Part shown: positions 10,111 through 58,176 of the stretch, in pieces
Numbering within the stretch: position 1 is the first letter of the stretch
How the letters are laid out: each line of letters starts with the position of its first letter
NCBI GenBank assembly: GCA_014238785.1
Contig: JABAAL010000047.1
Location: 1-64,000, forward strand
Reading direction: 5' to 3'
DNA: 64,000 nt
From: Phycisphaerales bacterium
GTDB taxonomy: Bacteria; Planctomycetota; Phycisphaerae; Phycisphaerales; SM1A02
The notes under the pieces: generated by a model
The model's input: the letters and a program-made list of their open reading frames with translations, nothing else
What the model was told of the DNA's origin: nothing
Databases searched by the model: none
Translations under genes and position numbers: made by a program

Positions 10111-10117
10111 GGGATAC

Positions 10118-10123: not shown

Positions 10124-10140
10124 CTCACTCTTGGGAACAA

Positions 10141-10377
10141 AAAGGGTGCTTATATCTTGAGTATGGAGCTCTTTTGCATTGCCGTGGTACAACCAAAAGG
10201 AGAAATAGGATGTTCCAACTTATAAGACTTGCTCATCATGCGGGGTCACGGCAGTAATCAAGAAATAGTCGAAGCAGTACTCCGTAGCCACGGGAAAATT
10301 CTTGAAGTTGATTTTTCTGGCATGCTGGATACTGTGTGTCTTGCTGTGTAAGGCAATCCCGCATCAACAGATTGGAT
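10141..10377. other. intergenic stretch with a 37-codon frame, no supported gene
   Basis: The only reading frame of note is a plus-strand ATG at 10238 running 37 codons to a stop at 10351. Its translation has a soluble, helix-like pattern (G-S-N-Q-E-I-V-E-A-V-L), but no family is recognised and no ribosome-binding site or -10 at the usual distance is seen. It may be a gene remnant or chance. Confidence 0.25.
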
Positions 10378-12732
10378 TTATGGGACAGTCCTAATATACG
10401 TCCTTCGCAACGAAAGTTCCGCATCATAGACATCGATGATAATTTCATTGGTCTTCATAGATGGCACATTGTCAACATGTAGGATTGGGATATCGTTGAT
10501 GGACACGACAGTTCCGTTTTCTTGATTGATTTCAATCGTACACCATTCGTTCTGGTCGATGAGGTTTGCCTTGATTGGATGCCCAGCGATGGAGCCAGTT
10601 TTATTGTCACCATGCGTTGCAATACTTACTTCTACGTCGCCGATTACGATGACCGCGTGTCCAGAACCAGAGATTTTTGTATCAAAACGAATTGCTGAAA
10701 AATCTGATTGTGAGAGTGGAATTGTTTGGGTGCTTGTGCCCTCAAGCGTGGCAGAGCCGCCTTCTGGTTGAACTGGTTCCCATTTGTTGTCATCGAGTTC
10801 TTTTAATGAAGTCTTAAACCGAACATCACCAAACGCAAAGTTTCCTTTGATGCATTTGATTTCAAGCGGCGACGGCTTGATAAGTCCGCTGTTTGTAACG
10901 GTGTTCACTTCGGTATTGACACTGTTAATTTCTAGAGATGTTATTTTTGGTGGATTTGCTTGGAACTTTATGCGTGCTTTATGCCAGATGCCTGCGCCTA
11001 AGTATCCGCCGCCTTGGTCATCAGAGAGAATGAGCGACATCCCAATCGGAAGCTTTATTTCCGCTTCGCTTTCGCTGGCAAACATATATGAAATTAGCAA
11101 CTCGCCTTCGACAAGGTTGAACTTTGTTGACATGGATTCGCCCTTGCTGGCAACGAGTGCGCCCATGCCTTCGCTCATAACAAATTCTGTCGGATTTTTT
11201 GTGTCGAGTTCAGCATTACAGAGTTCAATGCCGTTGTTATTCCAAACATCAGTAGCATCTGCCCACGTAAGATAAAGCCAGCCCTCGACTTCTTCACCGC
11301 GTTCTATTGGTGGTTCGACTTGTTTTGCAACGTACACAAGCTCGCCGCCTGGAAGTTTGTTGATTGTGTACGACATTTCGTTGTGTAGGAGTTGCTCGCC
11401 ATTACCACTTGTTGCATTATCGAGTTTGATCATGACGCACTTGCCAGATTCAAGGTTGTCAATAGTTACCTTTGCCGAGAGCCCGTCTTTGGAAAGAGTG
11501 ACGTTAGAGACCGATAAATCTTCAACGTGTTGTTGCGGTGAACCATATTCCCACCAGTAGTTGTAGTCGTATTTAGTTCCGGAAACAGTTGGCGTAGTTG
11601 CAAGTGGTTTTGTAAACGTAAGTTCAAATCCATCTTCAACAAGATGCGCACTTCTCATTTCAAGTGGTAGATTGCCATTGTATTTGACTCTCGCAATTCC
11701 GCTGCCTGGTGCGAGCCCGCCCCAACCACGATTTGTCATGCCTGCATAGAGCGTTCCATCGGGGCCATATTCAATGTGGTACGCAGAACCGACCCGTTTG
11801 TGTGCGAGCCAACATGCACCTTGTAACACTCCATCAATTTCTTCAAACTGAGCGCGAAGTATTTGTCCGTTTGTAAGTTCAGCGATGAGATATTGTCCTT
11901 GGAAGGGACCATCTGAATTGTCTTTAATTATATTTCCAGTTGAGCGAGACCATTGGTACGGAAGCCATAAAACAGGATGTTCTCTCGTTACTTTTGTAGG
12001 TTGGGTGTCGCTTGGCTCCACGTTGGGTTGATCTTCGTACCATTGCAGCGATGCAGGATGCCCGTAGAACGCACCTTCTTTAATTGCAAATACGGGGCAA
12101 ACAGCCATCCAGTCACCTTGGTTATCCGTAACGAGCAGGGTACCGTCGTCCAAAAGTCCCAAGCCAGCAGGCGAACGAAGCCCGCCCGCAATCGGCGTGA
12201 CAGTTCCATCGGGTGAAAGTTGTAGCACCCAACCGCGATAAGGTGCGCGTGATTTACCATGCCACCAATGGGGATTCCAAAAACCAACATTTAACGAAAA
12301 ATACATATTGCCATCTTGGTCGACAGGTAGTCCAAATCCAAATTCGTGATAGTTCCCACTCAAGCCCCAATCTTGGGTAATAGTGTGAACCTCATCGATA
12401 ATTGTGTCGCCGTCAAGGTCCACGAGTTTAGAAATTTCACCGCGTTGCATGACGAAGACTTCATCGTTGACAACGCAAAGGCCGAGACCTTCATGAAGTC
12501 CTTCGCAAATTAAAGTAAACGTTGCATCTTCAGGGTCCTTCGCATTTGGATTTTCAACTCGCCAAACTTGACCACGGCGCGTGCTTGCAACAAGATCTCC
12601 GTCGGACATAAACCCAATGCCACCGACTTCTAAGACTTCTCCCTCTGGTGGTGCGAGATAATCAACAGTCCAGAATTCGTTTTGCGATTGTTGCGCTTGC
12701 GCAAATGTGAGTACGAAAAGAAGCGGAATCAT
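10378..12732 (-). CDS. exported sugar-dehydrogenase-like propeller protein with C-terminal glycan-binding-like domain
   Basis: A 784-aa protein with a signal peptide (residues 1-13, ending A-Q-A). Residues about 20-370 form a six-bladed propeller like PQQ/sorbosone dehydrogenases; examples are D-L-D-G-D-T-I-I-D-E, D-Q-D-G-N-M-Y-F-S and L-R-S-P-A-G-L-G. The middle region (about 380-470) looks like a fibronectin/Ig-type strand segment. The C-terminus (about 500-784) contains two DUF1080/LamG-like pieces. It overlaps the upstream cytochrome gene by 4 bp. That fits an electron-transfer pair, with this protein oxidising a substrate and the cytochrome accepting electrons. The substrate is unknown. 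Confidence 0.78.
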   Translation of the reverse strand: MIPLLFVLTFAQAQQSQNEFWTVDYLAPPEGEVLEVGGIGFMSDGDLVASTRRGQVWRVENPNAKDPEDATFTLICEGLHEGLGLCVVNDEVFVMQRGEISKLVDLDGDTIIDEVHTITQDWGLSGNYHEFGFGLPVDQDGNMYFSLNVGFWNPHWWHGKSRAPYRGWVLQLSPDGTVTPIAGGLRSPAGLGLLDDGTLLVTDNQGDWMAVCPVFAIKEGAFYGHPASLQWYEDQPNVEPSDTQPTKVTREHPVLWLPYQWSRSTGNIIKDNSDGPFQGQYLIAELTNGQILRAQFEEIDGVLQGACWLAHKRVGSAYHIEYGPDGTLYAGMTNRGWGGLAPGSGIARVKYNGNLPLEMRSAHLVEDGFELTFTKPLATTPTVSGTKYDYNYWWEYGSPQQHVEDLSVSNVTLSKDGLSAKVTIDNLESGKCVMIKLDNATSGNGEQLLHNEMSYTINKLPGGELVYVAKQVEPPIERGEEVEGWLYLTWADATDVWNNNGIELCNAELDTKNPTEFVMSEGMGALVASKGESMSTKFNLVEGELLISYMFASESEAEIKLPIGMSLILSDDQGGGYLGAGIWHKARIKFQANPPKITSLEINSVNTEVNTVTNSGLIKPSPLEIKCIKGNFAFGDVRFKTSLKELDDNKWEPVQPEGGSATLEGTSTQTIPLSQSDFSAIRFDTKISGSGHAVIVIGDVEVSIATHGDNKTGSIAGHPIKANLIDQNEWCTIEINQENGTVVSINDIPILHVDNVPSMKTNEIIIDVYDAELSLRRTYIRTVP

Positions 12733-44419: not shown

Positions 44420-44615
44420 AGGCCTTCTTGCCCCGATGATTGAGAAGCAGCTACCTAATTCTTGGCCATCAGGAAGAGCATGGCCCAGGAATATGAAGTT
44501 GCAATCCCGCCGCTAGGATGGCAGCAGGAACCCTAGGTTCGAGATCGCCGTGATCTTGATCAAGTCACCCCAGCCCCGCAATCCATGTTTGATTGCTTTA
44601 AAAGGGATTTACCGT
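44420..44615 (+). promoter_or_regulatory. structured leader of the GspG-like pseudopilin gene
   Basis: About 200 nt, G+C richer than the coding DNA, that fold into several hairpins: GGCCAT/ATGGCC (44464-44484), GAACC/GGTTC with a 3-nt loop (44528-44540), CGAGATC/GATCTTG (44540-44558) and GCAATC/GATTGC followed by TTT (44578-44599). The last may attenuate transcription just before the ATG. AGCAGG...TAGGTTCGA (44523-44542) recurs before the GspH-like gene. It matches no riboswitch class I can recognise. Confidence 0.35.
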
Positions 44616-45038
44616 ATGAGCACACTCACAACAACTAACACTAACATTATCCGACGCGGATTTACGCTGATTGAAATCCTGATTGTCGTTGTCATTCTTG
44701 GTATTTTAGCCGCCATAGTGGTGCCGCAATTTACCGATGCTGCCGATGATGCAAATGATGCTGCTGTACGCAGCCAGTTGCAAACACTTCGAGGGCAAAT
44801 TGAACTTTATCGTGCACAAAACACACCATCAAATCCAACTTTAGTTGCTGATCAATGGGCTCAATTGGTCACTGGTGACTACCTCATGGGTGCTCCGATG
44901 AACCCATTAACAGGTACCTCAACAATTGCAGCAGCTGCAGCAGAAGATGTGGCTTGGATTTGGAAAGATAAAGGCAACGGGACTTTAGCTCTCTACGCTG
45001 GAGATAACTCTGAGGCCACATTCCTTTTTAGTGAATAA
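44616..45038 (+). CDS. GspG-like major pseudopilin
   Basis: A 140-aa pilin-like protein. Residues 1-14 form the leader, then the prepilin peptidase site R-R-G|F-T-L-I-E with Glu5 of the mature part, then a 20-residue hydrophobic helix and a long amphipathic helix. A compact C-terminal domain of about 90 residues follows. Size and pattern fit the T2SS major pseudopilin GspG or a short type IVa pilin. ATG 44616 was preferred to 44550, which would extend the leader through a hairpin. It is followed by a strong terminator, so it may be expressed more than the genes behind it. Confidence 0.8.
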   Translation: MSTLTTTNTNIIRRGFTLIEILIVVVILGILAAIVVPQFTDAADDANDAAVRSQLQTLRGQIELYRAQNTPSNPTLVADQWAQLVTGDYLMGAPMNPLTGTSTIAAAAAEDVAWIWKDKGNGTLALYAGDNSEATFLFSE

Positions 45039-45080
45039 ATAATGAGATAAGCCTTCTCACCTCGGGAAGACAGATTCCCT

Positions 45081-45123
45081 CAGCGGGGCAGATGATGGAG
45101 GTCGTCTGCCCCGCTGTTTATTT
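45081..45123 (+). terminator. strong intrinsic terminator after the pseudopilin gene
   Basis: CAGCGGGGCAGA 45081-45092 pairs perfectly with TCTGCCCCGCTG 45105-45116, with further pairs inside; TTTATTT follows. It lies 42 bp after the pseudopilin stop. Confidence 0.8.
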
Positions 45124-45306
45124 GGCTCCATCCATATTAGAATCTGAACCAATGTATTTGATGTGATAGCAGGGAGTTAGGCTCGACAACGTCCTATAAC
45201 TCTAGTGGGGAAATTCTCTGAGCGAGAATTTCATTGCTGCGCTTGTGTTGGGTAGTGAATTGCCCGATGCAAGTCAGTGACCTGCTCCTGTTTTGTGATA
45301 AGAATA
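45124..45306 (+). promoter_or_regulatory. leader of the GspH-like gene
   Basis: AGCAGGGAGTTAGGCTCGA (45168-45186) aligns with the motif in the first pilin leader at 15 of 20 columns. A perfect 9-bp hairpin, GAAATTCTC/GAGAATTTC with a 5-nt loop (45210-45232), follows. Because a terminator stands before it, a promoter must lie here, but no clear -35/-10 pair is seen. Confidence 0.35.
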
Positions 45307-45891
45307 ATGAAGAACTACACCAATACATTACTACCTGTTCGCCGTCGAGGATGGACGTTTATTGAATTGCTCGTCACTATTATGATAATGGCTATTGCTA
45401 CTTTGTTTGTTGGGCCACAAGCGAGTTCTGGTGCATCAGCATCTGGTCAATCAGCAACACGACTTGCCGTGACAGAGATACTTGCTGCGCAAATGGATGC
45501 TGTTGCACTTCAAGAATTCCGCCGTATCGCATTTTTCGTAGATGGAAGTGGCTGGTGTGTAGAGGTGCTTCAAAGCAACCAACTCAATACTCCGTATAAC
45601 GCCGCGACTGCGGAATATGCTGATGACGTATATGAGTCACAAGGTCACAATCAAAAATCCGTTATTGACTTTAATCAAGATACTCGTTTCACGAATGTAT
45701 CAATTTCATCTCCTCTTTTTGATGGGGCAAACACCAGTATCATTTTTGATCAAACCGGAGGTGTTATTGCACCGGATGGTTCACCAAGTACAGGTGGGAG
45801 TTTCGAAGTAAAAAGCGGTGACCACGCTTGGCAAGTTCTACTCGCTCCGTTAACTGGAAAAGTGACAGTTTCAAAAGTTGGTAGCTTGTAA
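45307..45891 (+). CDS. GspH/FimT-like minor pseudopilin
   Basis: A 194-aa protein with a prepilin site R-R-R-G|W-T-F-I-E-L-L (Trp instead of Phe after the cleaved Gly), a hydrophobic helix (about residues 17-37) and a beta-rich C-terminal domain like GspH. Minor pseudopilins prime or cap the pilus tip. ATG 45307 was chosen since it gives a normal short leader. It abuts pilM (TAATG overlap), opening the operon that runs to the pilC-like gene. Confidence 0.72.
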   Translation: MKNYTNTLLPVRRRGWTFIELLVTIMIMAIATLFVGPQASSGASASGQSATRLAVTEILAAQMDAVALQEFRRIAFFVDGSGWCVEVLQSNQLNTPYNAATAEYADDVYESQGHNQKSVIDFNQDTRFTNVSISSPLFDGANTSIIFDQTGGVIAPDGSPSTGGSFEVKSGDHAWQVLLAPLTGKVTVSKVGSL

Positions 45892-46946
45892 TGTTTTTAT
45901 CGAAAAATAATACAAAAGGTCAAATAGGAATCGCATTCCATGATGGTGGCGTGACTATTAGTCAATGCTCTTGGAATCAAGGCAGGTATGTGCATCCAAT
46001 AGCTGCGCGGATTAATCAAAATCCTCGTGATCTTACTTCTGAAAGTTGGCAAACGTGTATCAACCAAGCAGGCATCACTGGTACGGACTGTGTACTTTCT
46101 TTACCGCCTTCAATCGCACATCACCAAGTACTTCGACTACCAAACATGAGTGAACAGGAAGTCAAAGAGGCAGCAGCTTGGGAAATGGTAGATCGCCTTG
46201 GTGTTGAACGGTCAACGCTTCAACTTGATGCGATTCCGGTAGGTGCCGGTGGTGATGTTCTTGCAATTGCAATCGATCAACAAGTATTGTCGGGTTTACT
46301 TGACCCACTGTATGCAGCAGGTCTTAGGCCCACTGCAATTGAGCCCCAATGTATTTCTGTGGTTCGAACTTTGAGTATGTTGCACAGAAGGCAAAGTGAT
46401 CTCTCAGTTGTCCAGTCAGTTCTAGATTTTGGAATGCATGATTCTGCATTTATGGTTATTGCTGGTGACTCATTGGTTTTCTATAAACATCTCGATCACA
46501 ACGGAATGCAATTGATTGAAGCGATAGCATCCAATACGGATGTTACCTTTGACCAAGCCGAACGTATGATTACGTCTTCTCAAGAAGGAGAAGAAGATGC
46601 AGACATAAGCAAAGCAGTTCGAGATGCCACACGATCTACACACGAGTCGATTACCACAGATGCGATGAAATGCATGCGGCATTACGGTGTAACAAACCGT
46701 GGTCCAGTTTCTACTCATCTGATTGTGACTGGAAGTTCGGGTTGGAATGCCCATCTTGCAAATGTACTTGAAACATCGTGCAGCCAGGAAGTTATATCAG
46801 ACAGGGATATTCAGCATATTCAGGCATTGCCGAGCGATATGCTATCTTCAAGTGGCTGGCATATCGCTCTTGGAGCAAGTTTGTCAAGCGTAAACAGTCA
46901 AAGACAACGTCGTGGTAGCGACGCCACAGTAAAGGATGCAGCATGA
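45891..46946 (+). CDS. pilM: PilM-like actin-fold pilus assembly ATPase
   Basis: A 351-aa cytoplasmic protein resembling PilM: early G-I-A-F-H-D-G-G strand, V-L-S-L-P-P segment near residue 70, E-V-K-E-A-A-A-W-E near 95, A-A-G-L-R-P-T-A-I-E near 145 and a D-F-G-x-H-D phosphate-loop-like motif near 185. In type IVa pili PilM binds the N-terminal tail of PilN. The next gene fits that partner; it overlaps by 4 bp. Confidence 0.8.
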   Translation: MFLSKNNTKGQIGIAFHDGGVTISQCSWNQGRYVHPIAARINQNPRDLTSESWQTCINQAGITGTDCVLSLPPSIAHHQVLRLPNMSEQEVKEAAAWEMVDRLGVERSTLQLDAIPVGAGGDVLAIAIDQQVLSGLLDPLYAAGLRPTAIEPQCISVVRTLSMLHRRQSDLSVVQSVLDFGMHDSAFMVIAGDSLVFYKHLDHNGMQLIEAIASNTDVTFDQAERMITSSQEGEEDADISKAVRDATRSTHESITTDAMKCMRHYGVTNRGPVSTHLIVTGSSGWNAHLANVLETSCSQEVISDRDIQHIQALPSDMLSSSGWHIALGASLSSVNSQRQRRGSDATVKDAA

Positions 46947-47539
46947 ATTTATTGCCGGAACAGTATGTTGAGCGAAGCAAAAACAAAGCGAGAAGTAACC
47001 GAGTTTCTATTGCAATAATTATGACACTTTGCGCAGTTGCAGCAGTCGCAACCCATTCACGTATTTTGATGAACTCCTCGGTAGAACATCTTGCAATTTC
47101 GCAATCTCGCGCGAACAGTGCTCTTGAACTTGAAGTTGATGCAACATCCTTAGAATTAAAGAAGGCGCGCTTGGAAACGTTTATCAATCGGTACAACAAC
47201 GAAAAAACAGTGTTTGCAATGGGAGACATCGTTGCAACTATCACAAACATGCTTCCAGACTCTTTCACACTAGAAGATATTTCACTGGATATAGTGCAAA
47301 CCGAAAAGGGGGAGGCAATTAGTGGGCGTCTTGCTGGTTTTGCTGCAACAGATGAAACTATAGCCTCTCTTGTCTCCGCATTACAATCGCAGGATCCGTT
47401 TGCATTTGTAAGCATGGACTACAGTAAATCTCGAACTATTCGAGGGCAGAGGGCTCGTGAGTTTAGAGTAAGTTTTTTAATTGACCTTGAAAGTGACTGG
47501 GAAGTTTCAAGATTGGTTGTTGTTGGAGGTGTAGAATGA
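46943..47539 (+). CDS. pilN: PilN-like alignment subcomplex protein
   Basis: A 198-aa protein starting M-N-L-L-P-E-Q-Y-V-E-R, close to the I-N-L-L-P motif by which PilN binds PilM, with one membrane helix (about residues 25-43), a periplasmic coiled coil and a small ferredoxin-like domain. It is coupled by 4-bp overlaps to both neighbours. Confidence 0.78.
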   Translation: MNLLPEQYVERSKNKARSNRVSIAIIMTLCAVAAVATHSRILMNSSVEHLAISQSRANSALELEVDATSLELKKARLETFINRYNNEKTVFAMGDIVATITNMLPDSFTLEDISLDIVQTEKGEAISGRLAGFAATDETIASLVSALQSQDPFAFVSMDYSKSRTIRGQRAREFRVSFLIDLESDWEVSRLVVVGGVE

Positions 47540-48099
47540 CAGCATCACGTGAACGCTGGATGTTATTTGGCGCATTTATATTAACGGTTCTTTTTGTTTG
47601 TTTTTTTATAGTTCCAAACTATCAAAATGCAACCTTTGCATCTGCAGGTGCGATAGAGTTAGAGCTCCGAATTGAACAATTAGAACGGCGCCAAGTTGAA
47701 GTTGAAAAAATGCATCAAGATTTTGTTGCAATAAAAAATAAGATCCAGTCGGAGTGCAAATTTGTTCCAACTTCACCCGATACGGCACAAATAGTGAAAG
47801 CGCTATCTTTAGAAGTGGATGGTCAATATGTTCTTGACCAGAGTTTTACTACTGGAACATCATCTGCAAAGCTTCAAGAAGACGGTGGATTTTCAGTTCA
47901 GCCACTTGCAGTCACTCTGCATGCTGATTTTGATTCAATATTTTCAGTTATAGAAAATGTAGAATCGATGAACCGTCTCATACGAGTATCTTCATTGCGG
48001 ATTGCCGCGAAAGATGTTGAAAAGGATGGCGAAGTACCAATACTAGATGCTGCAATTGGATTGCATGCTATGTATGACAATGTTGGAGGTTTGAAATGA
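47536..48099 (+). CDS. pilO: PilO-like alignment subcomplex protein
   Basis: A 187-aa protein with one membrane helix (about residues 10-28), a coiled coil (about 38-75) and a ferredoxin-like periplasmic domain. Pattern, size and position between the PilN- and PilP-like genes support PilO. Sequence similarity itself is low, as is usual for this family. Confidence 0.7.
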   Translation: MTASRERWMLFGAFILTVLFVCFFIVPNYQNATFASAGAIELELRIEQLERRQVEVEKMHQDFVAIKNKIQSECKFVPTSPDTAQIVKALSLEVDGQYVLDQSFTTGTSSAKLQEDGGFSVQPLAVTLHADFDSIFSVIENVESMNRLIRVSSLRIAAKDVEKDGEVPILDAAIGLHAMYDNVGGLK

Positions 48100-48626
48100 A
48101 TAAGAAAATGAGATTAATATGGCAACGATTGATAGCGGATCGAAGACGATTTGGTTTATTTTGTATGTTATTGTTTGTTGGGTTACTTCTTTGGGCAAGA
48201 ATAATTGTTATCGCAAGGCCGTCCCGAACAGCAGTTGCTGAACCAATGGTTGAAGCATCCGTAGCAACTTTGGTAGCGACAAAGCACATTTCAATACCAG
48301 TTGTATTCGAAACGCATCCAGCAAAGAATCCATTTTTAATCGATGATGCATCGTTTCCTTCTCAGAATACGACGACCGATAATACTTCAATGCAATCTAC
48401 CAATGTAGGCGTAAAAGCAGAGCAGGACATTGTAGATGGCCTTACTCTTGAAGCTATTATGGGCAAAATGGCAATGATCAACGGTCGAGTGATTCAGCAA
48501 GGCGAGGTTGTGTTTGTGCAGAATATTCCAGATCCCCTTCGATTAGTCGAATTATCGGGGCGTTCAGTTATCATTTCAGCTGGAAATCGACGATATGAAC
48601 TAACAATAGTGCCCCCTCGCCGCTGA
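48096..48626 (+). CDS. PilP/GspC-like periplasmic linker protein
   Basis: A 176-aa protein: basic cytoplasmic tail, one membrane helix (about residues 20-40), Thr/Ser-rich linker, and a C-terminal beta domain (about 110-176) with I-M-G-K-M-A-M-I-N-G-R-V-I. This resembles the homology region of PilP and GspC that contacts the secretin. The membrane helix instead of a lipobox is GspC-like. It overlaps the PilO-like gene by 4 bp and is followed by the secretin gene. Confidence 0.65.
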   Translation: MNKKMRLIWQRLIADRRRFGLFCMLLFVGLLLWARIIVIARPSRTAVAEPMVEASVATLVATKHISIPVVFETHPAKNPFLIDDASFPSQNTTTDNTSMQSTNVGVKAEQDIVDGLTLEAIMGKMAMINGRVIQQGEVVFVQNIPDPLRLVELSGRSVIISAGNRRYELTIVPPRR

Positions 48627-48656
48627 TGGTATGGGTGCCTGCATGGAGACGCACCC

Positions 48657-50339
48657 GTGAAATACTCACTCTACACTCTATTGTTCTCATTACTTTTTCT
48701 AGCGCCACTGTCGACTGCACAAGAAGCAACGGAAGAAGTAGTGATAGACGAATTTGGAACCGTTGACCTCGTTGTTAATGAAACAGAAGTAACGCAAGTT
48801 CTTGAAATGCTTGCAATCCAAAGTCGCAAAAATATCATTGCCTCTAATAGTGTGACTGGTGCAGTATCGGCGAATCTCTACGACGTGACCTTTAATGAAG
48901 CGCTTGATGCGGTTCTTCGAGTTAATGGATTTGGGTATATTGAAGAGGGAAACTTTGTTTATGTGTACACAATTGAAGAACTCGATACAATTGAAAAAGC
49001 TAGGCGTAAGACTGAAAGCAGAATTTTTGAACTTCAATATTTATCTGCTGCAGACGCAGATGAGTTTGTCAAACCACTATTATCTGATGAAGGCAAGGCA
49101 GCATTTCGCGGTGATGTCAAAGCCGGGTACAAGCCAACATTAACAGATGGTGGTGGAGATAGTTATGCATGGGCAAGTAAACTTGTAATAAACGATTATC
49201 CTGAACATCTTAAAATTATCGCGACATTGTTAGCCGATCTCGACACTGCGCCTACACAAGTAGTGGTTGAATGTACTGTCGTGCAAACAAAAGTAACAGA
49301 GGATAACGAATTTGGAGTTGACTTCACTGCTTTGTCAAACATAGCAATCGGACAAGTTGCACTTCCTTTACTGGCAGCAGAGTCCGTTATTCTCGGCCTT
49401 GATGAGGTCAGAGGTAAAAGGACGGAAGTAGTTACTTCTACAGTCGGAAATACGGAGCTACCTATTGCAGGGGGACTTAAAGCAGGAATTATCAAGGATC
49501 ATGTCGGCGCTTTTTTGAAAGTGCTTGATTCAGTCGTTGATACTACTGTAATGGCTCGTCCAAGAATCACATGTTTGAATAGGCAGCGAGCTGAAGTGCT
49601 CATTGGTAAACGCGTTGGATATTTATCATCTACACAAACCGAAACAAGCACCATACAAACAGTGGAGTTTCTTGATACAGGTATTCAGCTCGTATTTAGG
49701 CCATTTATTTCACCCGAGGGCATGATTAGAATGGAGATTCATCCTAATGTTTCATTTTCACAATTACGCACGGATGCTGGGCAGAGCATCCCAGACGAAA
49801 TTACACAACAAGTAATGACAAACGTTCGTTGCAGGAATGGCGAAACAATTATCTTAGGTGGATTGTTTAGAGAGTCAACGCAAATTCAGCGGAATCAAGT
49901 CCCGTTTCTTGGAGATATTCCAATCATTGGCCTCGCGTTCCGCGGACAAGACGACGCAATTGAAAAAGAAGAAATTATTTTTCTTTTAACTCCGACAATT
50001 ATTCCTGACGAACGACTTTGGGAAGCGGGTAAGGATTCGCTCGAAATAGTTGAGTCAGTGCGTGTTGGAGCTCGCGCGGGGTTACTTCCATTTAGCAGTG
50101 AGCAAATTACTGCAAATTACAATCGCGACGCATTAAATGCCTACCGTGTTGGTGAATTAGATAATGCGTTGTATTGGTCAAATTTATCTCTGCGCAATAC
50201 GACAGAACAACCAGAAATGATTCGCTTGCGAGAAAAAATTACAAACGAAAAAGAATCTGTTTGGGAACGTGATTTACTTCAAAATCTTTTGCAGCGGGAA
50301 AAAGAACTCGCGCAAGCAGATTTGGAGGCACAGCAATGA
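48657..50339 (+). CDS. pilQ: secretin (PilQ/GspD family)
   Basis: A 560-aa outer-membrane secretin with a signal peptide (about residues 1-21, ending S-T-A). N0/STN-like domain about 35-110, one N1-like domain about 118-190, and the secretin channel about 200-460 with V-E-C-T-V-V, V-R-C-R-N-G-E-T-I-I-L-G-G-L-F and V-P-F-L-G-D-I-P-I-I-G near 415. The tail (about 470-560) is helical and Gln/Glu-rich. Only one N1 repeat makes it short for GspD. GTG start at 48657. The TPR lipoprotein gene overlaps by 4 bp. Confidence 0.87.
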   Translation: MKYSLYTLLFSLLFLAPLSTAQEATEEVVIDEFGTVDLVVNETEVTQVLEMLAIQSRKNIIASNSVTGAVSANLYDVTFNEALDAVLRVNGFGYIEEGNFVYVYTIEELDTIEKARRKTESRIFELQYLSAADADEFVKPLLSDEGKAAFRGDVKAGYKPTLTDGGGDSYAWASKLVINDYPEHLKIIATLLADLDTAPTQVVVECTVVQTKVTEDNEFGVDFTALSNIAIGQVALPLLAAESVILGLDEVRGKRTEVVTSTVGNTELPIAGGLKAGIIKDHVGAFLKVLDSVVDTTVMARPRITCLNRQRAEVLIGKRVGYLSSTQTETSTIQTVEFLDTGIQLVFRPFISPEGMIRMEIHPNVSFSQLRTDAGQSIPDEITQQVMTNVRCRNGETIILGGLFRESTQIQRNQVPFLGDIPIIGLAFRGQDDAIEKEEIIFLLTPTIIPDERLWEAGKDSLEIVESVRVGARAGLLPFSSEQITANYNRDALNAYRVGELDNALYWSNLSLRNTTEQPEMIRLREKITNEKESVWERDLLQNLLQREKELAQADLEAQQ

Positions 50340-51544
50340 ATCGATTAGTTGCAATTATTGGTGTTGTGATTTTGACAGGATGCGCTGGACCTACAAAGTC
50401 AGGCAAAGAGGCAAGAATCAAAGCGCATAGCAGAATGGATGTCGTGAATGCAAATCTTGCGGCACAACAAGCAATGCAACAATTCGAAGTAGGACAGCTA
50501 AAAGCAGCAATTGAAACCATAGACGCTGCAATTGAACGCTTCGAAGCAAATGCCGAGTACCACCTCCTTCGAGGAAGAATTTTATTAGAACAGCATAAAT
50601 TAGATGCTGCAAATAAAGCACTTATCCGCTCTATAGAATTAGATCCAACGAATGCAGAACCACACTATTTTATAGGAATTTTATATCAACGATGGTCTGA
50701 TGATGCCTCTGCATTAGCTTCTTACAAAAAAGCAATGGAATGTAATGAGACACACCCACAATTTTTACTTGCTGCAGCAGAATCTTACGTTGCCCTTGGG
50801 CAAATGGAAGAAGCAATTGCTCTTTTAGATAATTCAGGAAAAGAATTTCAACATCAACCGTCGGTGATGGCTTTAATTGGTCACATTCATTTGCGAAATG
50901 GCAACCCGAAAGAAGCATCGAAGTTTTTATCTAATTCACGATTACTTGGCAATGATGACACGGAAGTATTAACCCTGCTTGCAACAGCTCAATACAATGC
51001 AGGTGAATATGCTCAGTGTTTATCAACTCTTGTGCAGTTGGAGCAATTTTTTGAACTGTCTTACACTTTTCAACGTTTTCGAGGCAAGTGTTTAGCGGCA
51101 ACAGGTCGCCAAATTCAAGGCAGAGATATTTGCCTGAAGGTAACAAAGCAAACACCCGACGACGCTGGTGCTTGGGTGGATCTTGGCTTCATCGCTTGGG
51201 AAATGGGTGATTACAAGAGAGTGGCGAGATGTGGCAAGAAAATTAGTGAGCTTGAACCCGATTATGCAGAGGGGCCGTTGTTTGAAGGCATCGCTGCTTT
51301 GCATGAAGGGGACGTGAATAATGGGATGAAATTACTCGCGCAAGCACAGTCCGATAACACCTTTAATGGCATTGATTCCTTGCTTCAATGTTATAGAAAA
51401 TCAACAAAATTAAGTGTACAAACGCCAATTACACCGAATATGAGGGCAAATTTAGTCGAAGGTGCTCTTGGACATCCAGTTGCGCAGGTTGAGAAAAACT
51501 TGCCAATTGTGGGTGTTGCTCAAGATTACCCTCTTGCCCCCTAG
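50336..51544 (+). CDS. TPR lipoprotein, possible pilotin
   Basis: A 402-aa lipoprotein with lipobox L-T-G-C (Cys16) and about eight to nine TPR repeats over residues 40-340. PilF/PilW pilotins of type IV pili are TPR lipoproteins that place the secretin in the outer membrane, and this gene overlaps the secretin gene by 4 bp. It is longer than typical pilotins (about 230 aa), so it may have further roles. Confidence 0.72.
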   Translation: MNRLVAIIGVVILTGCAGPTKSGKEARIKAHSRMDVVNANLAAQQAMQQFEVGQLKAAIETIDAAIERFEANAEYHLLRGRILLEQHKLDAANKALIRSIELDPTNAEPHYFIGILYQRWSDDASALASYKKAMECNETHPQFLLAAAESYVALGQMEEAIALLDNSGKEFQHQPSVMALIGHIHLRNGNPKEASKFLSNSRLLGNDDTEVLTLLATAQYNAGEYAQCLSTLVQLEQFFELSYTFQRFRGKCLAATGRQIQGRDICLKVTKQTPDDAGAWVDLGFIAWEMGDYKRVARCGKKISELEPDYAEGPLFEGIAALHEGDVNNGMKLLAQAQSDNTFNGIDSLLQCYRKSTKLSVQTPITPNMRANLVEGALGHPVAQVEKNLPIVGVAQDYPLAP

Positions 51545-51589: not shown

Positions 51590-52849
51590 GTGTTTACTGA
51601 CCCAATTTCAATCCTACTCTTTACCGTAACACTGCTCTTAGCAGCGATGTCGATTATTGTTGCATTGAAATTGAAAGCGCGCGAATCGGCAGCGGTTGTT
51701 GCGATGCAAATTGCGAAACAGGATGCAGAAGAAGCGTGTTACGCTCTTGACTCCGCAAAAATTCATGCTTGTATTGATCGCACTCATAGGCGACAAGTTG
51801 AATCCGTTTTTAATGTTCTTCGTGATGCTGTAATTGTTATTGATGCACATGGGGAAGTTTTGCACGTCAATGAAATTGCATCAGGATTACTAAACGTGTC
51901 AATAGAATCTGCAACTGGAAAACCGATTACTGAAGTCGTTGTGGATCACCAACTTGCTTCGACTATATCTGATGCTCGAAGTGGGCTGCCAAAAGAAGGC
52001 CGGCAGTACGAACAAGAAATAAAGAATGACGAAGAAACGGTGGCATACGAGGTTCATCTGCAATCGGTGGGGCATCAGGATGAAGCGATGCATGCAGTTG
52101 TAACAGTGCTTCGCGACTTGTCACGTGAGAGAGAAATTGCCCGTCTCAAGAGTGATTTTGTTTCTAAGGCAAGTCATGAACTTAGGACTCCTCTTTCGTC
52201 CATCTCAGCATATATTGAAATGCTTGTTGATGGAGATGCACAAAACGAAGAAACGCGACAGGAGTTTTACGGTGTAATTACAACGGAAACACAACGTCTT
52301 CAGCGAATGATAAATAACTTGCTGAACATCAGTCAAATCGAAGCTGGGCTGATGCATATTGATCGAATACGGGTGGACTTTCAAGAACTTGTTGAGCGCG
52401 CCGTTACAAATATGAAACCGCAAGCACAAGAGAAAAATCTGGAAATTCATTCTCAAATCGCAGAGGTTGATTTGTCGATTGTTGGAGATGGCGACATGCT
52501 CTATCAGGTTATTGTTAACCTTCTTTCGAATGCAATTAAATACACGCCTGAAGGTGGTCGTATTACTGTTGCTGCAGATACCGACAACCTGACTAGAAGT
52601 TTACATTTCAGTGTATCTGATACGGGTCTTGGTATTGCTCCAGATCAAACGGACAAAGTATTTGATAAGTTTTATCGTGTAGAAAATTATCGACACGTTG
52701 CACAGGGCACGGGTCTTGGACTAAACCTTTGCAGGCATATAGTAGAAACATTACACAGTGGACAAATTGGCCTGGAATCAACTCTGGGCATGGGTTCTAA
52801 ATTTTGGTTCTCTATTCCATCAGAACGAGGTCAACGAAAGGCAGCATGA
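51590..52849 (+). CDS. membrane-bound PAS histidine kinase
   Basis: A 419-aa sensor kinase: one N-terminal membrane helix (about residues 4-26) with no real periplasmic domain, PAS (about 65-170), HisKA with His196 in S-H-E-L-R-T-P, and HATPase (about 300-415) with N-box N-L-L-S-N-A-I-K-Y, G1 D-T-G-L-G-I and G2 G-T-G-L-G-L. It resembles PhoR/ResE-like kinases that sense an internal cue through PAS. GTG 51590 start. It is coupled by ATGA to the receiver gene. It lies inside the pilus operon, 45 bp after the TPR gene. Confidence 0.9.
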   Translation: MFTDPISILLFTVTLLLAAMSIIVALKLKARESAAVVAMQIAKQDAEEACYALDSAKIHACIDRTHRRQVESVFNVLRDAVIVIDAHGEVLHVNEIASGLLNVSIESATGKPITEVVVDHQLASTISDARSGLPKEGRQYEQEIKNDEETVAYEVHLQSVGHQDEAMHAVVTVLRDLSREREIARLKSDFVSKASHELRTPLSSISAYIEMLVDGDAQNEETRQEFYGVITTETQRLQRMINNLLNISQIEAGLMHIDRIRVDFQELVERAVTNMKPQAQEKNLEIHSQIAEVDLSIVGDGDMLYQVIVNLLSNAIKYTPEGGRITVAADTDNLTRSLHFSVSDTGLGIAPDQTDKVFDKFYRVENYRHVAQGTGLGLNLCRHIVETLHSGQIGLESTLGMGSKFWFSIPSERGQRKAA

Positions 52850-53256
52850 CAAAAGCGCATACCATTTTAATTGTTGATGACGAAGCGCATATTTTGCAAG
52901 TGCTTTCTCTGAAATTACGCAATTGTGGATATTCCATTACGACTGCAGTTGATGGAGAAGATGCGTTGTATCAAGTAAAGACGTGCTTACCAGACCTTAT
53001 TATTACAGATGTGCAAATGCCCTATATGAATGGGCTCGAATTTGCCCATGAATTATCAAAAGATAGCAAGACTGCACACATTCCTGTTGTAGTGCTAACA
53101 GCAAGAGGTCATACGCTCGAAACTAGTGATACGGATATACCGAACGTACGGAAGGTGTTAAGTAAGCCATTCAGTCCTCGGGGGATTGCCGAATTATGCG
53201 AACAACTGCTTGCAAATGTACCAATCCGTGCTTCAGAAAAGCGAGATGCTGCATGA
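52846..53256 (+). CDS. single-domain response regulator
   Basis: A 136-aa receiver without output domain. Acid pocket D-D-E near residue 12, phospho-acceptor Asp55 in I-T-D-V-Q-M-P, Thr in L-T-A-R near 85 and Lys in S-K-P-F near 107 are intact. ATG 52846 overlaps the kinase stop by 4 bp. With the HD-GYP protein encoded by the next overlapping gene it forms a likely relay, the receiver contacting that protein or the pilus machine as CheY- or PilG-like proteins do. Confidence 0.87.
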   Translation: MTKAHTILIVDDEAHILQVLSLKLRNCGYSITTAVDGEDALYQVKTCLPDLIITDVQMPYMNGLEFAHELSKDSKTAHIPVVVLTARGHTLETSDTDIPNVRKVLSKPFSPRGIAELCEQLLANVPIRASEKRDAA

Positions 53257-54869
53257 ACGTAACTAACTTTACATCACCTACGAATACTGTTCCTTCAAAA
53301 TTTACAACATTGATGCGAGATGCTGGGATGGTTATGTTGCACTGCGATTCAAAGGGAAGACTTGTTTCAAGCGAACAGAGCGATTGGCTTATTGATCTAT
53401 TAAGCGCATCGCCCCTTGTGCGCCTTGCGATCACAACAAACTGTGCGACATGGAATACACAAGATATTTTGCAAATATCTGAAGCTTTTCAAGGTGTTTG
53501 GCTTGTGCCGGCACGAAAAACAAACAGTCGTCGCGATGGTGGTTTTGTAATCGGCGTAATTGTGACGGATGCACTTTGCACGAGCGAGTATATCCATGCC
53601 CTTTGCCAAGCTAGCGGTGCTGATACCACAGTAATTAAAGACATGTTGCTTTCTTTGTCGCCTGTAGCGTCACACGATGTTAAAAGAATTGCCTCCATGT
53701 TTCAATTTGCATGGAATGCTCAATCAGCGAGTGATTTGAATCAGTCCACTATGGAGTCAATCGGCCAAGAGCTTGCTGACTCATATGAAGAGATTAATTT
53801 GCTTTACACAATTACAGGTAGCATGAATTCAGTGAAAAATCCAAAGCGATTTATTGAACTTGCATGCAACGAACTTCTTCAAACACTTCCGTACGAATGG
53901 ATTGGAGTACAATTTCGTATAGGCGACCGCCTTCCACGAATTGGTAGTGAGCTTGTTTTTGCAGGCAATGCACCAGCAGAAGTTTCTGAGTACGTTTGCT
54001 CTATTACAAACGATATTGGAAATACGCCAATAATCTCGAACGGTGATGACCTTGTTTCAAATCGTCTTGGAAAGGCAACGATCATCGAGCCAATTTTGAG
54101 TGATGGTGATGTTATTGGTGTTCTCGTTGCGGCAAATAAACAAGGAAATGATTCGGAAGCATCCTCGGTTGATATTAAATTATTGTCCGCTACAGCGGCA
54201 CAAATCGCTATTTTCCTTGAAAATGCCCTTTTATACGAAGATTTAAGCGCTACATTCCTCGGAACACTCGAAGCATTAACTGCCTCAATTGATGCGAAAG
54301 ATAAGTACACCAGTGGCCATTCTCTACGGGTGGCATTATTAACCGCACAACTTGCTGAAGAAGCTGGTCTTGATGCAGAGCAGGTCGATCGATATCGCAT
54401 TGCTGGCTTAGTGCATGACATTGGAAAGATAGGCGTTCCAGAACATGTCCTTGCTAAAAAGGGTGGCTTGACGAGCGGGGAGTTTGCTGAGATTCAAAAG
54501 CATCCTGAAATTGGAGCGAAGATCCTAAAAGATATCCCTCAGATGGAAGACATTCTTGGTGGCGTTTTGCACCATCATGAGAAATTTGGTGGGGGTGGTT
54601 ATCCACATGGAATTTCAGGAAATGACATTCCGCTTGTTGCTCGGATGATTTCACTTGCCGATACGTTTGACGCGATGTCATCGAGTAGGACCTACCGCAA
54701 CGCAATGAACAGGAATTCGGTTCTAGACGAAATGAAACGAGTTGTTGGCTCCCAGTTTGATCCAGAACTCGCAGAACTATTCTTCGCACTTGATTTTTCA
54801 AAGTGGGAACAATTGATGATTGAGCACCATGTAGGTCGTCCTATAACTAACCAAAGGAACGCAGCATGA
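53253..54869 (+). CDS. GAF-HD-GYP cyclic-di-GMP phosphodiesterase
   Basis: A 538-aa protein. Residues about 1-160 are an unassigned domain. A GAF domain (about 175-330) is followed by HD-GYP (about 345-520), with His388-Asp389 in H-D-I-G-K-I-G and H-H-E-K-F-G-G-G-G-Y-P about 45 residues later. The catalytic motifs are complete. The start overlaps the receiver stop by 4 bp. Its operon position implies that the kinase and receiver control cyclic-di-GMP near the pilus machine; this is inference. Confidence 0.87.
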   Translation: MNVTNFTSPTNTVPSKFTTLMRDAGMVMLHCDSKGRLVSSEQSDWLIDLLSASPLVRLAITTNCATWNTQDILQISEAFQGVWLVPARKTNSRRDGGFVIGVIVTDALCTSEYIHALCQASGADTTVIKDMLLSLSPVASHDVKRIASMFQFAWNAQSASDLNQSTMESIGQELADSYEEINLLYTITGSMNSVKNPKRFIELACNELLQTLPYEWIGVQFRIGDRLPRIGSELVFAGNAPAEVSEYVCSITNDIGNTPIISNGDDLVSNRLGKATIIEPILSDGDVIGVLVAANKQGNDSEASSVDIKLLSATAAQIAIFLENALLYEDLSATFLGTLEALTASIDAKDKYTSGHSLRVALLTAQLAEEAGLDAEQVDRYRIAGLVHDIGKIGVPEHVLAKKGGLTSGEFAEIQKHPEIGAKILKDIPQMEDILGGVLHHHEKFGGGGYPHGISGNDIPLVARMISLADTFDAMSSSRTYRNAMNRNSVLDEMKRVVGSQFDPELAELFFALDFSKWEQLMIEHHVGRPITNQRNAA

Positions 54870-55201
54870 ATATTACCTCTGAATCACATCTAGCAGCAAC
54901 CGTTATCTGCATTAAAGGCGACTTAACCGCGGATGATACGGATTGCTTTCAACGCGATGTTCGGGAAACTAACGAACATTTTAGATCCAACGTAATCATC
55001 GATTGTTCGGGACTTGGTTTAATTGATTCTGTTGGGCTTGAGTCGCTTCTCTGGTTGTCCGATGAACTTAATAGAGCGGGGAATAAGCTTCGTTTTGCGT
55101 TCGTTCCAACAACGATTGAGCGAGTGTTTGAATTAACACGATTGAATCGTGTATTTAGCGTCCACGAATCGGTAGAACAAGCAGCGCGGAGTTTTGCATA
55201 A
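54866..55201 (+). CDS. STAS domain protein (anti-sigma-factor-antagonist type)
   Basis: A 111-aa single STAS domain. The loop I-D-S-V-G-L-E has Ser55 at the place phosphorylated in SpoIIAA. The partner kinase (RsbW/SpoIIAB type) is not in the window; the histidine kinase of this operon is not of that family. The 4-bp overlap with the HD-GYP gene and 6-bp gap to pilB tie it to the same transcript. It may be a partner-switch component or a membrane-complex adaptor. Confidence 0.82.
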   Translation: MNITSESHLAATVICIKGDLTADDTDCFQRDVRETNEHFRSNVIIDCSGLGLIDSVGLESLLWLSDELNRAGNKLRFAFVPTTIERVFELTRLNRVFSVHESVEQAARSFA

Positions 55202-55207
55202 GTAAGT

Positions 55208-56923
55208 ATGAAGCCTTTACCAGACAATTCGACATCATCTTTAACGGCACAAGCACCGCTTGGACAGTTGTTATTGGGTAAAGGTGTTTTGTCCCAGGAT
55301 CAACTTGACAGAGCACTTGAACAACAAAAAAATTGTGATGAACGGAAGTTAATCGGAGAAGTTCTTGTTGAAATGGGCTTAGCTGACAATCGCACCGTAC
55401 TTGAAACACTTGCCCAAGCGTACGGCATCCCTTTTGCTTCTGATACCGCGCGTCTTGCCGATCCAAAAGTAATTGAAGTCTTGCCACGCGAATTTCTTCA
55501 AGAGCATGGCGTCTTGCCAATGTTCCTTGTGCGTGATGTTCTCACCGTTGCAGTAAGCGAACCAGCGAATCTGTATCTATTGGAAGAAATAGAAAGACGA
55601 ACTGGATATACAACGCAAATTGTAGCTGCAACTTCGGATGATATAGAATCCGCGCATCAATCATATCTTCCTGCGGCAAATGTTTTTGTCATCGACGAAA
55701 TATATGAAGACATTGATGAACATGACTTTGCGGTAATCGAACAAGATGCTACTGAACTTGCAGACCTTGAAGAAGATGCGGGTCATGGTCCAGTAGTAAA
55801 ACTCGTTAACTTCTTAATTTATTCTGCAGTGCAAGAAGGTGCTTCGGACATTCATATTGAACCAGATGACCGCATGCTTCGCGTTCGGTATCGTGTTGAC
55901 GGCAAACTCTACGAAAAAATACAACCGCCTTACAAAATGCAGCAAGCAATTGCGAGCCGAATCAAAATTATGGCAAACCTCGATATTTCAGAACGTCGTC
56001 TTCCGCAAGATGGCGACTTCAATGTCATGATGGATGGTCGTCCAATCGACTTGCGAGTTTCAACCATGCCAAGCAAGTATGGCGAAATCGTTGTTATGAG
56101 AATTATTGACAGCAAAAATAATCGCCTATCGCTTGATAGTTTGGGCTTTAATGAACAAATGCTAATCGATTGGAAGAGTATCGTTGAGCAACCAAACGGC
56201 GTTGTACTTGTAACGGGACCAACGGGTTCAGGTAAATCAACCACGCTGTACTCGGTTTTGTCACAATTTGATACTGATGAAATTAACGTAGCAACGATTG
56301 AAGATCCAATCGAAGCACAAATCCGTGGGATCAACCAATCACAAATTAACGAACGCGCTGGCTTTACTTTCTCGACTGCCTTGCGTTCAATGCTTCGTCA
56401 AGATCCAGATGTATTGATGGTTGGCGAAGTTCGTGATTCGGATACTGCTGCAATCGTTTCCCAAGCCGCATTGACAGGACACCTTGTCTTCTCGACGCTG
56501 CACACTAACGATTCGATATCTGCAGTTACTAGGCTAGTCAATCTTGGCATTGAGCCCTATCTTGTTGCTGCAACGGTTCGTGGCGTCCTTGCGCAACGAC
56601 TCGTGCGTAAAATTTGCCCACACTGTAAAACCGCCTGGAACGGTGAAGACGCGGTACGTAGTGCATGCGGTGGCGGTGAATATTACATAGGCGCTGGTTG
56701 CAATCGTTGCCGAGGTACTGGATTTGCTGGGCGAATTGGCATATTTGAATTACTTATTCCAAGCAATGAAATACTTGAGGCAATTGGCAGGGGAGCCTCG
56801 CTCCAGGAATTGCGAACACTTACTTCGCACGCAACGCTTCGCGTTGATGGACTTGAAAAAGTTGCTAAAGGTCTAACGACACCTGAAGAAGTGCTTTGCG
56901 CAACAAGGAGTATCAGCTCGTGA
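55208..56923 (+). CDS. pilB: PilB/GspE-type assembly ATPase with MshEN domain
   Basis: A 571-aa hexameric ATPase that powers pilus/pseudopilus assembly. The N-terminal MshEN/GspE-II domain (about residues 17-160) has two L-x-G-x-x-L-x-x-x-G repeats (18-26 and 48-57). In MshE such repeats bind cyclic-di-GMP through an Arg before L-G; here Pro17 and Lys47 stand there, so binding is uncertain. Walker A is G337-P-T-G-S-G-K-S344, followed by Asp and His boxes and Walker B (D-P-D-V-L-M-V-G-E). A C4 zinc motif, C-P-H-C...C-N-R-C, lies near 475-500. It overlaps the pilC-like gene by 4 bp. Confidence 0.9.
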   Translation: MKPLPDNSTSSLTAQAPLGQLLLGKGVLSQDQLDRALEQQKNCDERKLIGEVLVEMGLADNRTVLETLAQAYGIPFASDTARLADPKVIEVLPREFLQEHGVLPMFLVRDVLTVAVSEPANLYLLEEIERRTGYTTQIVAATSDDIESAHQSYLPAANVFVIDEIYEDIDEHDFAVIEQDATELADLEEDAGHGPVVKLVNFLIYSAVQEGASDIHIEPDDRMLRVRYRVDGKLYEKIQPPYKMQQAIASRIKIMANLDISERRLPQDGDFNVMMDGRPIDLRVSTMPSKYGEIVVMRIIDSKNNRLSLDSLGFNEQMLIDWKSIVEQPNGVVLVTGPTGSGKSTTLYSVLSQFDTDEINVATIEDPIEAQIRGINQSQINERAGFTFSTALRSMLRQDPDVLMVGEVRDSDTAAIVSQAALTGHLVFSTLHTNDSISAVTRLVNLGIEPYLVAATVRGVLAQRLVRKICPHCKTAWNGEDAVRSACGGGEYYIGAGCNRCRGTGFAGRIGIFELLIPSNEILEAIGRGASLQELRTLTSHATLRVDGLEKVAKGLTTPEEVLCATRSISS

Positions 56924-58176
56924 CCGCATTACTAGCAAAAGAAACATTCGCCTGGAAAGCGCGTGATATTCATGGCCGCGAAATGACCGGATCGCAAGTT
57001 GCCTCAAATGAAGATGAAGTAGCAAATGTCCTTCGGACGCAGGGGTTATTTATTACTGCGATTGATCCAGAGCCGCTGCTTCGGGGCGATGTCGAATCGG
57101 GCAAGGATGTCATAATGACTACCATCGCGCAACGTCGCGTAAAGCAAGATGACGTCATTGCATTTTGTCAGCAGCTTGCAGTAATGCTTGAAACGGGTGT
57201 TTCACTTTCGGAGTCACTTGAAGCACTTGCAACGCAAACGAAACAAAAAGAGTTTAGAGATGTACTTAACAGTGTGTACGCTGATGTGTGTGGCGGCGAC
57301 GCGCTGTCGACAGCGCTTGCTCGCCGTAGACGAGTTTTCCCACGAATTGTTGTAAGTCTGGTTCGTGCCTCAGAGTTGTCCGGTACCCTCCCAATGATGC
57401 TCGAACGTGTTGCAAGTTATTTGTCACGAGAGCGTAAAACGATTCGAGAAGTAAAAGGTGCGATGACATATCCGATGATTATGGGTTTCACAGCAGTAGC
57501 GGTAACATCGCTCATCGTGACTTTCGTGCTGCCACGCTTTGCAAAAATATACGAGATGCGTTCCGCAACACTGCCTATGCCTACCAAGATTCTCATGGGC
57601 ATCAGCGACGGTTTGCTAGGTACGTGGATGTACTGGATTCCTGCGCTAATTGCGATACTTGTTGCTGCTGTTTTTTGGTATAAAACATCAAGTGGAAGAA
57701 ATTTCTTTGATTGGTTAAAACTAAGAACCCCAGTTGTTGGTCCCATGTTTAGCCAACTCTACACAACACGCGCTTCGCGAACGCTTTCAACGTTGCTTGC
57801 AGCGGGAGTTGGTGTGCTTGATGCAATTGGTATATGCCGAGATGTAACAAATAACGTGCAGTTTGATCGACTTTGGACGGACATGGAAAACAATGTTCGC
57901 AATGGTTATGCGCTAAGCGATGCAGTATTTGATTCGCCATATGTTCCCTCATATGTTGCATCGATGATGGCTTCGGGTGAACGTTCAGGTAGACTTCCAG
58001 CAGTGATGGATCGGGTTGCGAGTTTTACAGATGAAGAACTTGAGTCACGCGTAAAAAGTGTGAGTGCACTCATTGAACCACTTATGATTCTCGTTATGGG
58101 CGGTGTTGTTGGTGGCGTTGCGATTGCAATGTTACTCCCAATTTTCAGCATGTCCAAGGTCATTTCTGGAGGGTAA
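56920..58176 (+). CDS. pilC: PilC/GspF-type inner-membrane platform protein
   Basis: A 418-aa platform protein with two T2SSF repeats (about residues 75-195 and 275-400) and three membrane helices (about 175, 230 and 385). The conserved F-C-Q-Q-L-A-V-M-L-E-T-G-V and E-R-S-G-R-L-P motifs are visible. GTG 56920 overlaps the ATPase stop by 4 bp; the frame is open slightly further upstream, inside pilB. It is the last gene of the operon. No prepilin peptidase or retraction ATPase (PilT) is in the window. Confidence 0.9.
   Translation: MTALLAKETFAWKARDIHGREMTGSQVASNEDEVANVLRTQGLFITAIDPEPLLRGDVESGKDVIMTTIAQRRVKQDDVIAFCQQLAVMLETGVSLSESLEALATQTKQKEFRDVLNSVYADVCGGDALSTALARRRRVFPRIVVSLVRASELSGTLPMMLERVASYLSRERKTIREVKGAMTYPMIMGFTAVAVTSLIVTFVLPRFAKIYEMRSATLPMPTKILMGISDGLLGTWMYWIPALIAILVAAVFWYKTSSGRNFFDWLKLRTPVVGPMFSQLYTTRASRTLSTLLAAGVGVLDAIGICRDVTNNVQFDRLWTDMENNVRNGYALSDAVFDSPYVPSYVASMMASGERSGRLPAVMDRVASFTDEELESRVKSVSALIEPLMILVMGGVVGGVAIAMLLPIFSMSKVISGG

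Follow-up and report, generated by a model that had tools for sequence, protein, structure and literature searches.

A conserved kinase-receiver-GAF-HD-GYP-STAS cassette next to pilB in Phycisphaerae: a candidate c-di-GMP switch on the pilus motor

In a Phycisphaerales bacterium (assembly GCA_014238785.1), four genes encoding a sensor histidine kinase (HK), a stand-alone receiver (REC), a GAF-HD-GYP protein and a single-domain STAS protein stand directly upstream of the gene for the pilus assembly ATPase PilB. They were analysed in a window of 64,000 nucleotides (contig JABAAL010000047.1, positions 1 to 64,000, forward strand). Judged by its conserved gene order, this cassette is very probably dedicated to the pilus machine in whose operon it lies. 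Across Planctomycetota its shared core consists of kinase, STAS and pilB, with or without the receiver, combined with an exchangeable enzyme of cyclic di-GMP (c-di-GMP) metabolism. Our preferred interpretation, to which we give an even chance, is that the four genes form a post-translational switch that works through c-di-GMP and is dedicated to PilB, the pilus extension motor, with the STAS protein as a phospho-regulated adaptor.

Such a switch would start with a membrane kinase that responds to a cue by passing phosphate to the lone receiver, its presumed partner. Receiver and STAS protein would then act on the GAF-HD-GYP enzyme, setting its activity, and/or on PilB. The enzyme is expected to hydrolyse c-di-GMP, its predicted substrate, near the machine, and the lowered local concentration would leave the MshEN domain of the neighbouring PilB less occupied, if this domain binds the messenger and responds in the direction assumed here. 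Through phosphorylation of a conserved Ser, the STAS protein could serve as the adaptor between the signalling proteins and PilB. Where the enzyme position holds a cyclase, both enzymes or none, as in other Planctomycetota, the sign of control would be changed and the kinase-receiver-STAS-PilB core kept.

How a diffusible messenger can act on one machine and not on another is an open question, and here a sensor, a relay, an enzyme, an adaptor and a likely receptor are co-encoded in one cassette. The exchange of synthase and hydrolase amounts to a natural experiment on the sign of control. The cassette also offers a lead on what STAS proteins do apart from controlling sigma factors, and on the surface behaviour of Planctomycetota, which are bacteria of ocean and soil.

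Conservation of the cassette next to pilB

The HK-REC, REC-HDGYP and HDGYP-STAS junctions are each an ATGA overlap of 4 base pairs (bp), the receiver starting at an ATG within a longer TTG-started frame and the HD-GYP protein at an internal ATG of its frame. A gap of 6 bp (55201 to 55208) separates STAS from pilB, and pilB and pilC overlap by 28 bp. These junctions and the Pfam domains of the four products confirm the first-pass annotation, which had described four overlapping signalling genes and the short distance to pilB. It had also claimed overlaps with machine genes on both sides and a single unit. Upstream the cassette is not overlapped, 45 bp lying between the TPR gene and HK; downstream it is closely joined to pilB-pilC. 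Outside the genus, 17 relatives have a TPR-HK gap of 194–326 bp (median 230), the junctions inside the cassette are mostly of a few bp, and those of REC-HDGYP and HDGYP-STAS have a median of -4 bp. Because of this wide gap as against the tight internal junctions, HK to pilC looks like a sub-operon of its own, transcribed as one unit, and in most genera cassette and pilB-pilC probably have their own promoter. A promoter scan was uninformative (21 matches vs 30 expected).

The gene-order search that the first-pass annotation had proposed revealed the arrangement in many other genomes, and its refuting condition of an order restricted to this contig is therefore false. Matches to the HD-GYP protein were sought in 40 relatives, and stretches of as much as 20 kb were set against the genes of the window. 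All 12 genus mates have the full order TPR-HK-REC-HDGYP-STAS-pilB, as do 8 of the 12 remaining family genomes and 9 of 16 others from the order. It is missing in some genomes, for example in four of one f2 genus, where a REC-HDGYP pair stands elsewhere, and one locus (L073) keeps the cassette without HK and REC. A scan of genome contigs with a receiver alignment yielded 80 loci, nearly all titled Phycisphaerales, Phycisphaerae or Planctomycetota. HK-REC-HDGYP-STAS-pilB-pilC is uninterrupted in 58 of them, and four more differ only by a split pilB match, which brings the count to at least 62 of 80. In another 12 a contig end truncates the locus, and the remaining six differ (four isolated REC-HDGYP pairs and two loci without a detected HK). 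Conservation across the order and beyond rules out chance gene order. Dedication to this machine, as first proposed, is supported by this conservation across Phycisphaerae together with the invariant HD-GYP residues, two intact GGDEF proteins in the genome and the MshEN domain of PilB.

In several genomes of the order, REC-HDGYP pairs with no HK and STAS beside them occur close to an additional pilB-pilC cluster, usually on the opposite strand (L069-L072, L067, L198, L201). Metagenome-assembled genomes titled Limnohabitans, Candidatus Kuenenia and Vicinamibacteraceae (L157, L175, L182) carry the Phycisphaerae cassette, probably because the contigs are contaminants or the bins were wrongly labelled.

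An exchangeable enzyme across Planctomycetota

A STAS profile served to screen 392 genomes. Of the 60 regions then read, 35 have STAS immediately upstream of pilB. Between HK and STAS, these 35 loci contain REC-HDGYP (12), REC alone (9), REC-GGDEF (7), REC-HDGYP-GGDEF (2), HDGYP-GGDEF cut by a contig end (1), no recognised gene (3) or a partial case (1). The empty slots are real, REC adjoining STAS in L209, L213 and L246; L252 and L254 have HK-STAS-pilB without a receiver. A tally of 127 loci, in which some genomes are counted twice, comprises HK-REC-HDGYP (99), HK-REC (9), HK-REC-GGDEF (7), HK (4), both enzymes (2) and other forms (6). Pfam confirms the GAF-GGDEF and GAF-HD-GYP architectures of the slot enzymes. 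GGEEF and GHQ(A/V)GD are intact in six of the seven GGDEF-only proteins and in all three paired ones. The degenerate protein belongs to L226, which was left out of the argument for this reason and for its split PilB frame and long branch in the tree. In L216, one of the three loci with HK alone, a 445-amino-acid gene without a Pfam match, with a degenerate-GGDEF look by eye, stands between HK and STAS (10116-11453), and a REC-HDGYP pair stands divergently beside it.

On the PilB tree the slot states cluster, with 10 changes compared to 26 in shuffles. HD-GYP loci and their reduced forms make up one supported clade (100/99) that covers the class; GGDEF loci, L226 aside, fall into another (100/100) together with loci whose slot is empty, and those with both enzymes group separately as a third. 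This pattern is compatible with an ancestor that had both enzymes and subsequent losses, the root being unsure. The local c-di-GMP "erasing module" suggested by the first-pass annotation thus describes Phycisphaerae well and the rest of the phylum poorly, since there the slot can hold a GGDEF synthase, both enzymes or neither. An enzyme that may be a destroyer, a maker, both or missing points to a dedicated switch and not to chance gene order. We are more doubtful about a phylum-wide version, in which kinase, receiver and STAS would be the fixed PilB adaptor, the swap of hydrolase and synthase would invert the sign of control, and c-di-GMP would form a private pool.

The persistence of HK-REC-STAS-pilB without any c-di-GMP enzyme weighs against our interpretation and implies that the core can do without c-di-GMP turnover. 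It fits a switch by protein contact, in which receiver and/or STAS bind PilB (or PilC) and gate the motor, the c-di-GMP enzyme being an optional side input. The nine enzyme-free loci, the two receiver-free ones and the immediate succession of STAS and pilB in 35 of the loci sampled throughout the phylum all speak for such a mechanism, as does the CheY-like PixE, reported to bind PilB1 in Synechocystis (PMC7690835). It leaves unexplained, however, why enzymes of the same messenger so frequently occupy the slot and why the same PilB has an MshEN domain, and we consider it possible but distinctly less probable than the c-di-GMP switch. Since STAS keeps its place next to pilB even in loci that lack a c-di-GMP enzyme, the more widely applicable possibility is that this protein contacts PilB, the kinase or the receiver; its partner, left open by the first-pass annotation, would not be the eraser alone.

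The predicted cyclic-dinucleotide hydrolase

The GAF-HD-GYP protein is likely to be an active cyclic-dinucleotide hydrolase. Its HD_5 match (1e-37, 130 bits vs a cut-off of 27) covers residues 345-506 (54285-54770), and GAF also scores above the Pfam cut-off. The metal ligands of the HD domain and the GYP motif are present: H356, H388, D389, K392, H417, H441, H442, GYP 449-451 and D470 are invariant among 23 HD-GYP sequences. An AlphaFold2 model (mean predicted local distance difference test score, pLDDT, 78) resembles the GAF-HD-GYP enzyme PmGH (4mcw; E 4e-18). Two observations count against c-di-GMP as substrate. In a profile alignment, a Tyr takes the place of the Glu that binds the third metal in PmGH, and two-metal enzymes vary in substrate. 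Furthermore, V-cGAP3, a hydrolase of cyclic GMP-AMP (3'3'-cGAMP), is about equally close as PmGH, and the substrate is therefore a prediction.

The protein could be a scaffold rather than a catalyst, as in Xanthomonas, where RpfG, GGDEF and PilZ proteins are reported to act on PilT/PilU and to control pilus motility by HD-GYP contacts, not by turnover (PMC3749722). We find this improbable: no metal-binding or GYP residue varies, and the genome yielded no PilZ adaptor. Nor do we place more trust in activity on 3'3'-cGAMP or pGpG, which would make the link to PilB indirect. The YTxGHS context shared with V-cGAP3 and the Tyr replacement speak for it, but the GGDEF proteins that other lineages carry in this slot show the usual Asp at GHQAGD, a position that bears on substrate choice and here favours c-di-GMP.

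Residues 13-140 form an additional, conserved N-terminal domain, modelled as helix-two strands-helix-three strands-helix. Foldseek gave no match below 1e-3; VIA Z values were 6-8 (maximum 8.2), and Pfam PocR matched weakly (0.024, in 2 of 20 members). The domain is roadblock/PocR-like at best and possibly a sensor. A roadblock/MglB-like reading was not used, there being no obvious MglA and one weak Arf match (848-amino-acid frame).

PilB as candidate receptor

PilB matches T2SSE (5e-132) and MshEN (6e-18) in Pfam, and its N-terminus carries tandem 24-residue motifs (motif I, 55256-55327; motif II, 55349-55420). It scores 46.6 bits with the NCBIfam c-di-GMP_motif model NF053729 (cut-off 38), which is also passed by PilB proteins from cassettes with GGDEF (L212), both enzymes (L224), an empty slot (L209) and HD-GYP (L057). 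NF053729 had no match in the type II GspE (contig C32) or the C6 ATPase of the same genome; two PilB-like ATPases on C34 score 50.9, which passes, and 37.6, just under. MshEN is known to bind c-di-GMP through a motif whose consensus (PMC5013675) was later extended (PMC11731258). Measured against it, the residues of PilB weaken the case for a receptor: motif I begins with Pro instead of Arg (PLG; consensus (R/K/L)LG), position 24 of motif II is Ala instead of the ligand Gln, this Gln is missing in all order members checked, and the conserved ligand residues are thus not all in place. The c-di-GMP-binding GSPII-C domain of T. thermophilus likewise has Pro at one such first position (PMC11731258). 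Binding by the cassette PilB is plausible, and the chances that PilB is the c-di-GMP target appear about even.

The genome (1.81 Mb, 97% complete) encodes two GGDEF proteins with intact GGDEF and three HD-GYP-type domains, and it gave no PilZ match at the search sensitivity used. Its second complete HD-GYP protein, of FHA-GAF-HD-GYP architecture, lies beside ribosomal protein genes on contig C37 (L077 3952-5472).

Kinase, receiver and STAS protein

The kinase has HATPase_c (2e-29), HisKA (5e-19) and PAS (2e-7), all above the Pfam cut-off, and a single N-terminal membrane helix, judged by eye. In the receiver (136 amino acids), Response_reg (9e-22) is the sole domain above cut-off, and D11, D12, D55, T85 and K107 are invariant in 20 homologues. 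The pair does not match a PilS-PilR system, whose regulator has AAA+ and DNA-binding output, nor is REC an RpfG-type response regulator, which is a receiver-HD-GYP fusion where here two genes overlap by 4 bp.

The STAS protein (Pfam, 1.5e-13) has an Asp54-Ser55 pair invariant in 22 homologues, Ser55 (codon 55028-55030) being of the phospho-acceptor type typical of RsbV-RsbW-RsbU partner switching. No cognate HATPase_c_2 kinase and PP2C phosphatase stand alongside it. The genome has a single RsbW-type kinase, on C47, and three PP2C (SpoIIE) phosphatases, on C1, C9 and C47. A STAS-RsbW operon for the cassette STAS can be dismissed, because this RsbW has its own STAS neighbour. That the protein is an anti-anti-sigma factor served by these distant enzymes, the cassette being mainly transcriptional, is the least credible alternative, for despite the invariant Asp-Ser and the presence of kinase and phosphatases in the genome, RsbW is adjacent to another STAS, the cassettes read contain no sigma factor, RsbW or PP2C, and constant adjacency to pilB points to a partner in the machine. 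A second STAS unit (L074 4229-5874), with an RsbW-like kinase, STAS and an MlaE-type ABC permease in succession, is apparently linked to lipid transport and not to a sigma factor.

The pilus operon and its surroundings

The features are collected in Table 1. PilM-N-O-P-Q, PilB, PilC and prepilins in one cluster are as expected of a type IVa pilus. The PilM match is weak in Pfam, the NCBIfam PilQ model (207 bits) stays under its cut-off, as do the NCBIfam scores of PilB and PilC, and pilN, pilO and pilP were assigned from gene order and size. A strong terminator-like hairpin with a 16-bp stem (45081-45116) directly follows pilA, the first prepilin gene, before the second, and suggests that the pilin is separately and highly expressed. 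Downstream of the operon lie dus, on the opposite strand, and dnaK.

Table 1. Features of the pilus operon and its signalling cassette, in window coordinates
Feature	Position	Strand	Basis or remark
Major prepilin-like gene, then GspH-like prepilin	44550..45891	+	prepilin N-methylation motifs
pilM, pilN, pilO, pilP, pilQ (alignment complex and secretin)	45891..50339	+	Secretin 9e-39
TPR lipoprotein-like protein, upstream neighbour of HK	50336..51544	+	TPR models; position conserved
Sensor histidine kinase (PAS, HisKA, HATPase_c)	51590..52849	+	Pfam; GTG start
Stand-alone receiver, CheY-like, without output domain	52846..53256	+	Response_reg
GAF-HD-GYP protein, predicted cyclic-dinucleotide phosphodiesterase	53253..54869	+	HD_5, GAF
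N-terminal domain of the HD-GYP protein (residues 13-140), possible sensor	53289..53672	+	model pLDDT 84
Single-domain STAS protein, SpoIIAA/RsbV-like	54866..55201	+	STAS model
PilB/GspE-type assembly ATPase with N-terminal MshEN	55208..56923	+	T2SSE, MshEN
PilC/GspF platform protein, last gene of the operon	56896..58176	+	T2SSF 1e-58

No retraction ATPase PilT is encoded within the operon; a PilT-like gene lies on contig C34 of the same genome, and C6 and C31 encode shorter ATPases of the T2SSE family. Besides this operon, the genome has three type IV filament clusters: PilB-PilT-PilB-PilC and prepilins on C34 (L086 1-9097), a PilM-N-O-P-ATPase set on C6 (L087 7510-12032) and a type II secretion operon on C32 (L089 5977-15582).

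Comparison with known systems

No single component of the cassette is new; the combination and the slot swap appear to be undescribed in the open-access literature searched. There we found neither a pilus operon with this order, in agreement with the first-pass annotation, nor a description of the conserved combination with a hydrolase/synthase swap at one operon position, nor pilus regulation of this kind in Planctomycetota.

The hydrolase itself shares with PmGH the GAF-HD-GYP arrangement and the fold, and differs in its extra N-terminal domain and in the Tyr at the third-metal Glu. Among the closest solved relatives of PilB are T. thermophilus PilF, V. cholerae MshE and other PilB chains. 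Like MshE/PilF-type ATPases it has the tandem motif at its N-terminus; unlike them it has Pro at position 1 and has lost the motif II Gln, and its binding of c-di-GMP is predicted.

As a pathway, the cassette recalls RpfC-RpfG and its HD-GYP/GGDEF/PilZ complex on PilT/PilU, in which two-component input and an HD-GYP protein are likewise combined with pilus motor ATPases as target (PMC3749722). Here, however, the receiver is unfused, PilZ was not found, the genes lie in the pilus operon and the nearest motor is PilB, not PilT/PilU. With PixE-PilB1 it shares a CheY-like regulator and an assembly ATPase as target (PMC7690835), the target being predicted in our case; PixE is a PATAN-CheY-like protein, whereas no PATAN was detected here and HK, STAS and a c-di-GMP enzyme are co-encoded.

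For the STAS protein, the nearest parallels are HsbA, BgrV and SiaC, STAS or STAS-like proteins that bind or control diguanylate cyclases in a phosphorylation-dependent manner (PMC5085249, PMC8457831). In HsbA-HsbD, BgrV-BgrR and SiaC-SiaD, as in the cassette, a STAS protein with a phospho-acceptor-type Ser is encoded beside a c-di-GMP enzyme, and these systems are linked to surface behaviour (PMC5085249, PMC8457831). Unlike them, the cassette has no Ser kinase or PP2C and its enzyme is, in Phycisphaerae, a predicted hydrolase; its STAS protein belongs to a pilus operon, next to a classical histidine kinase and receiver.

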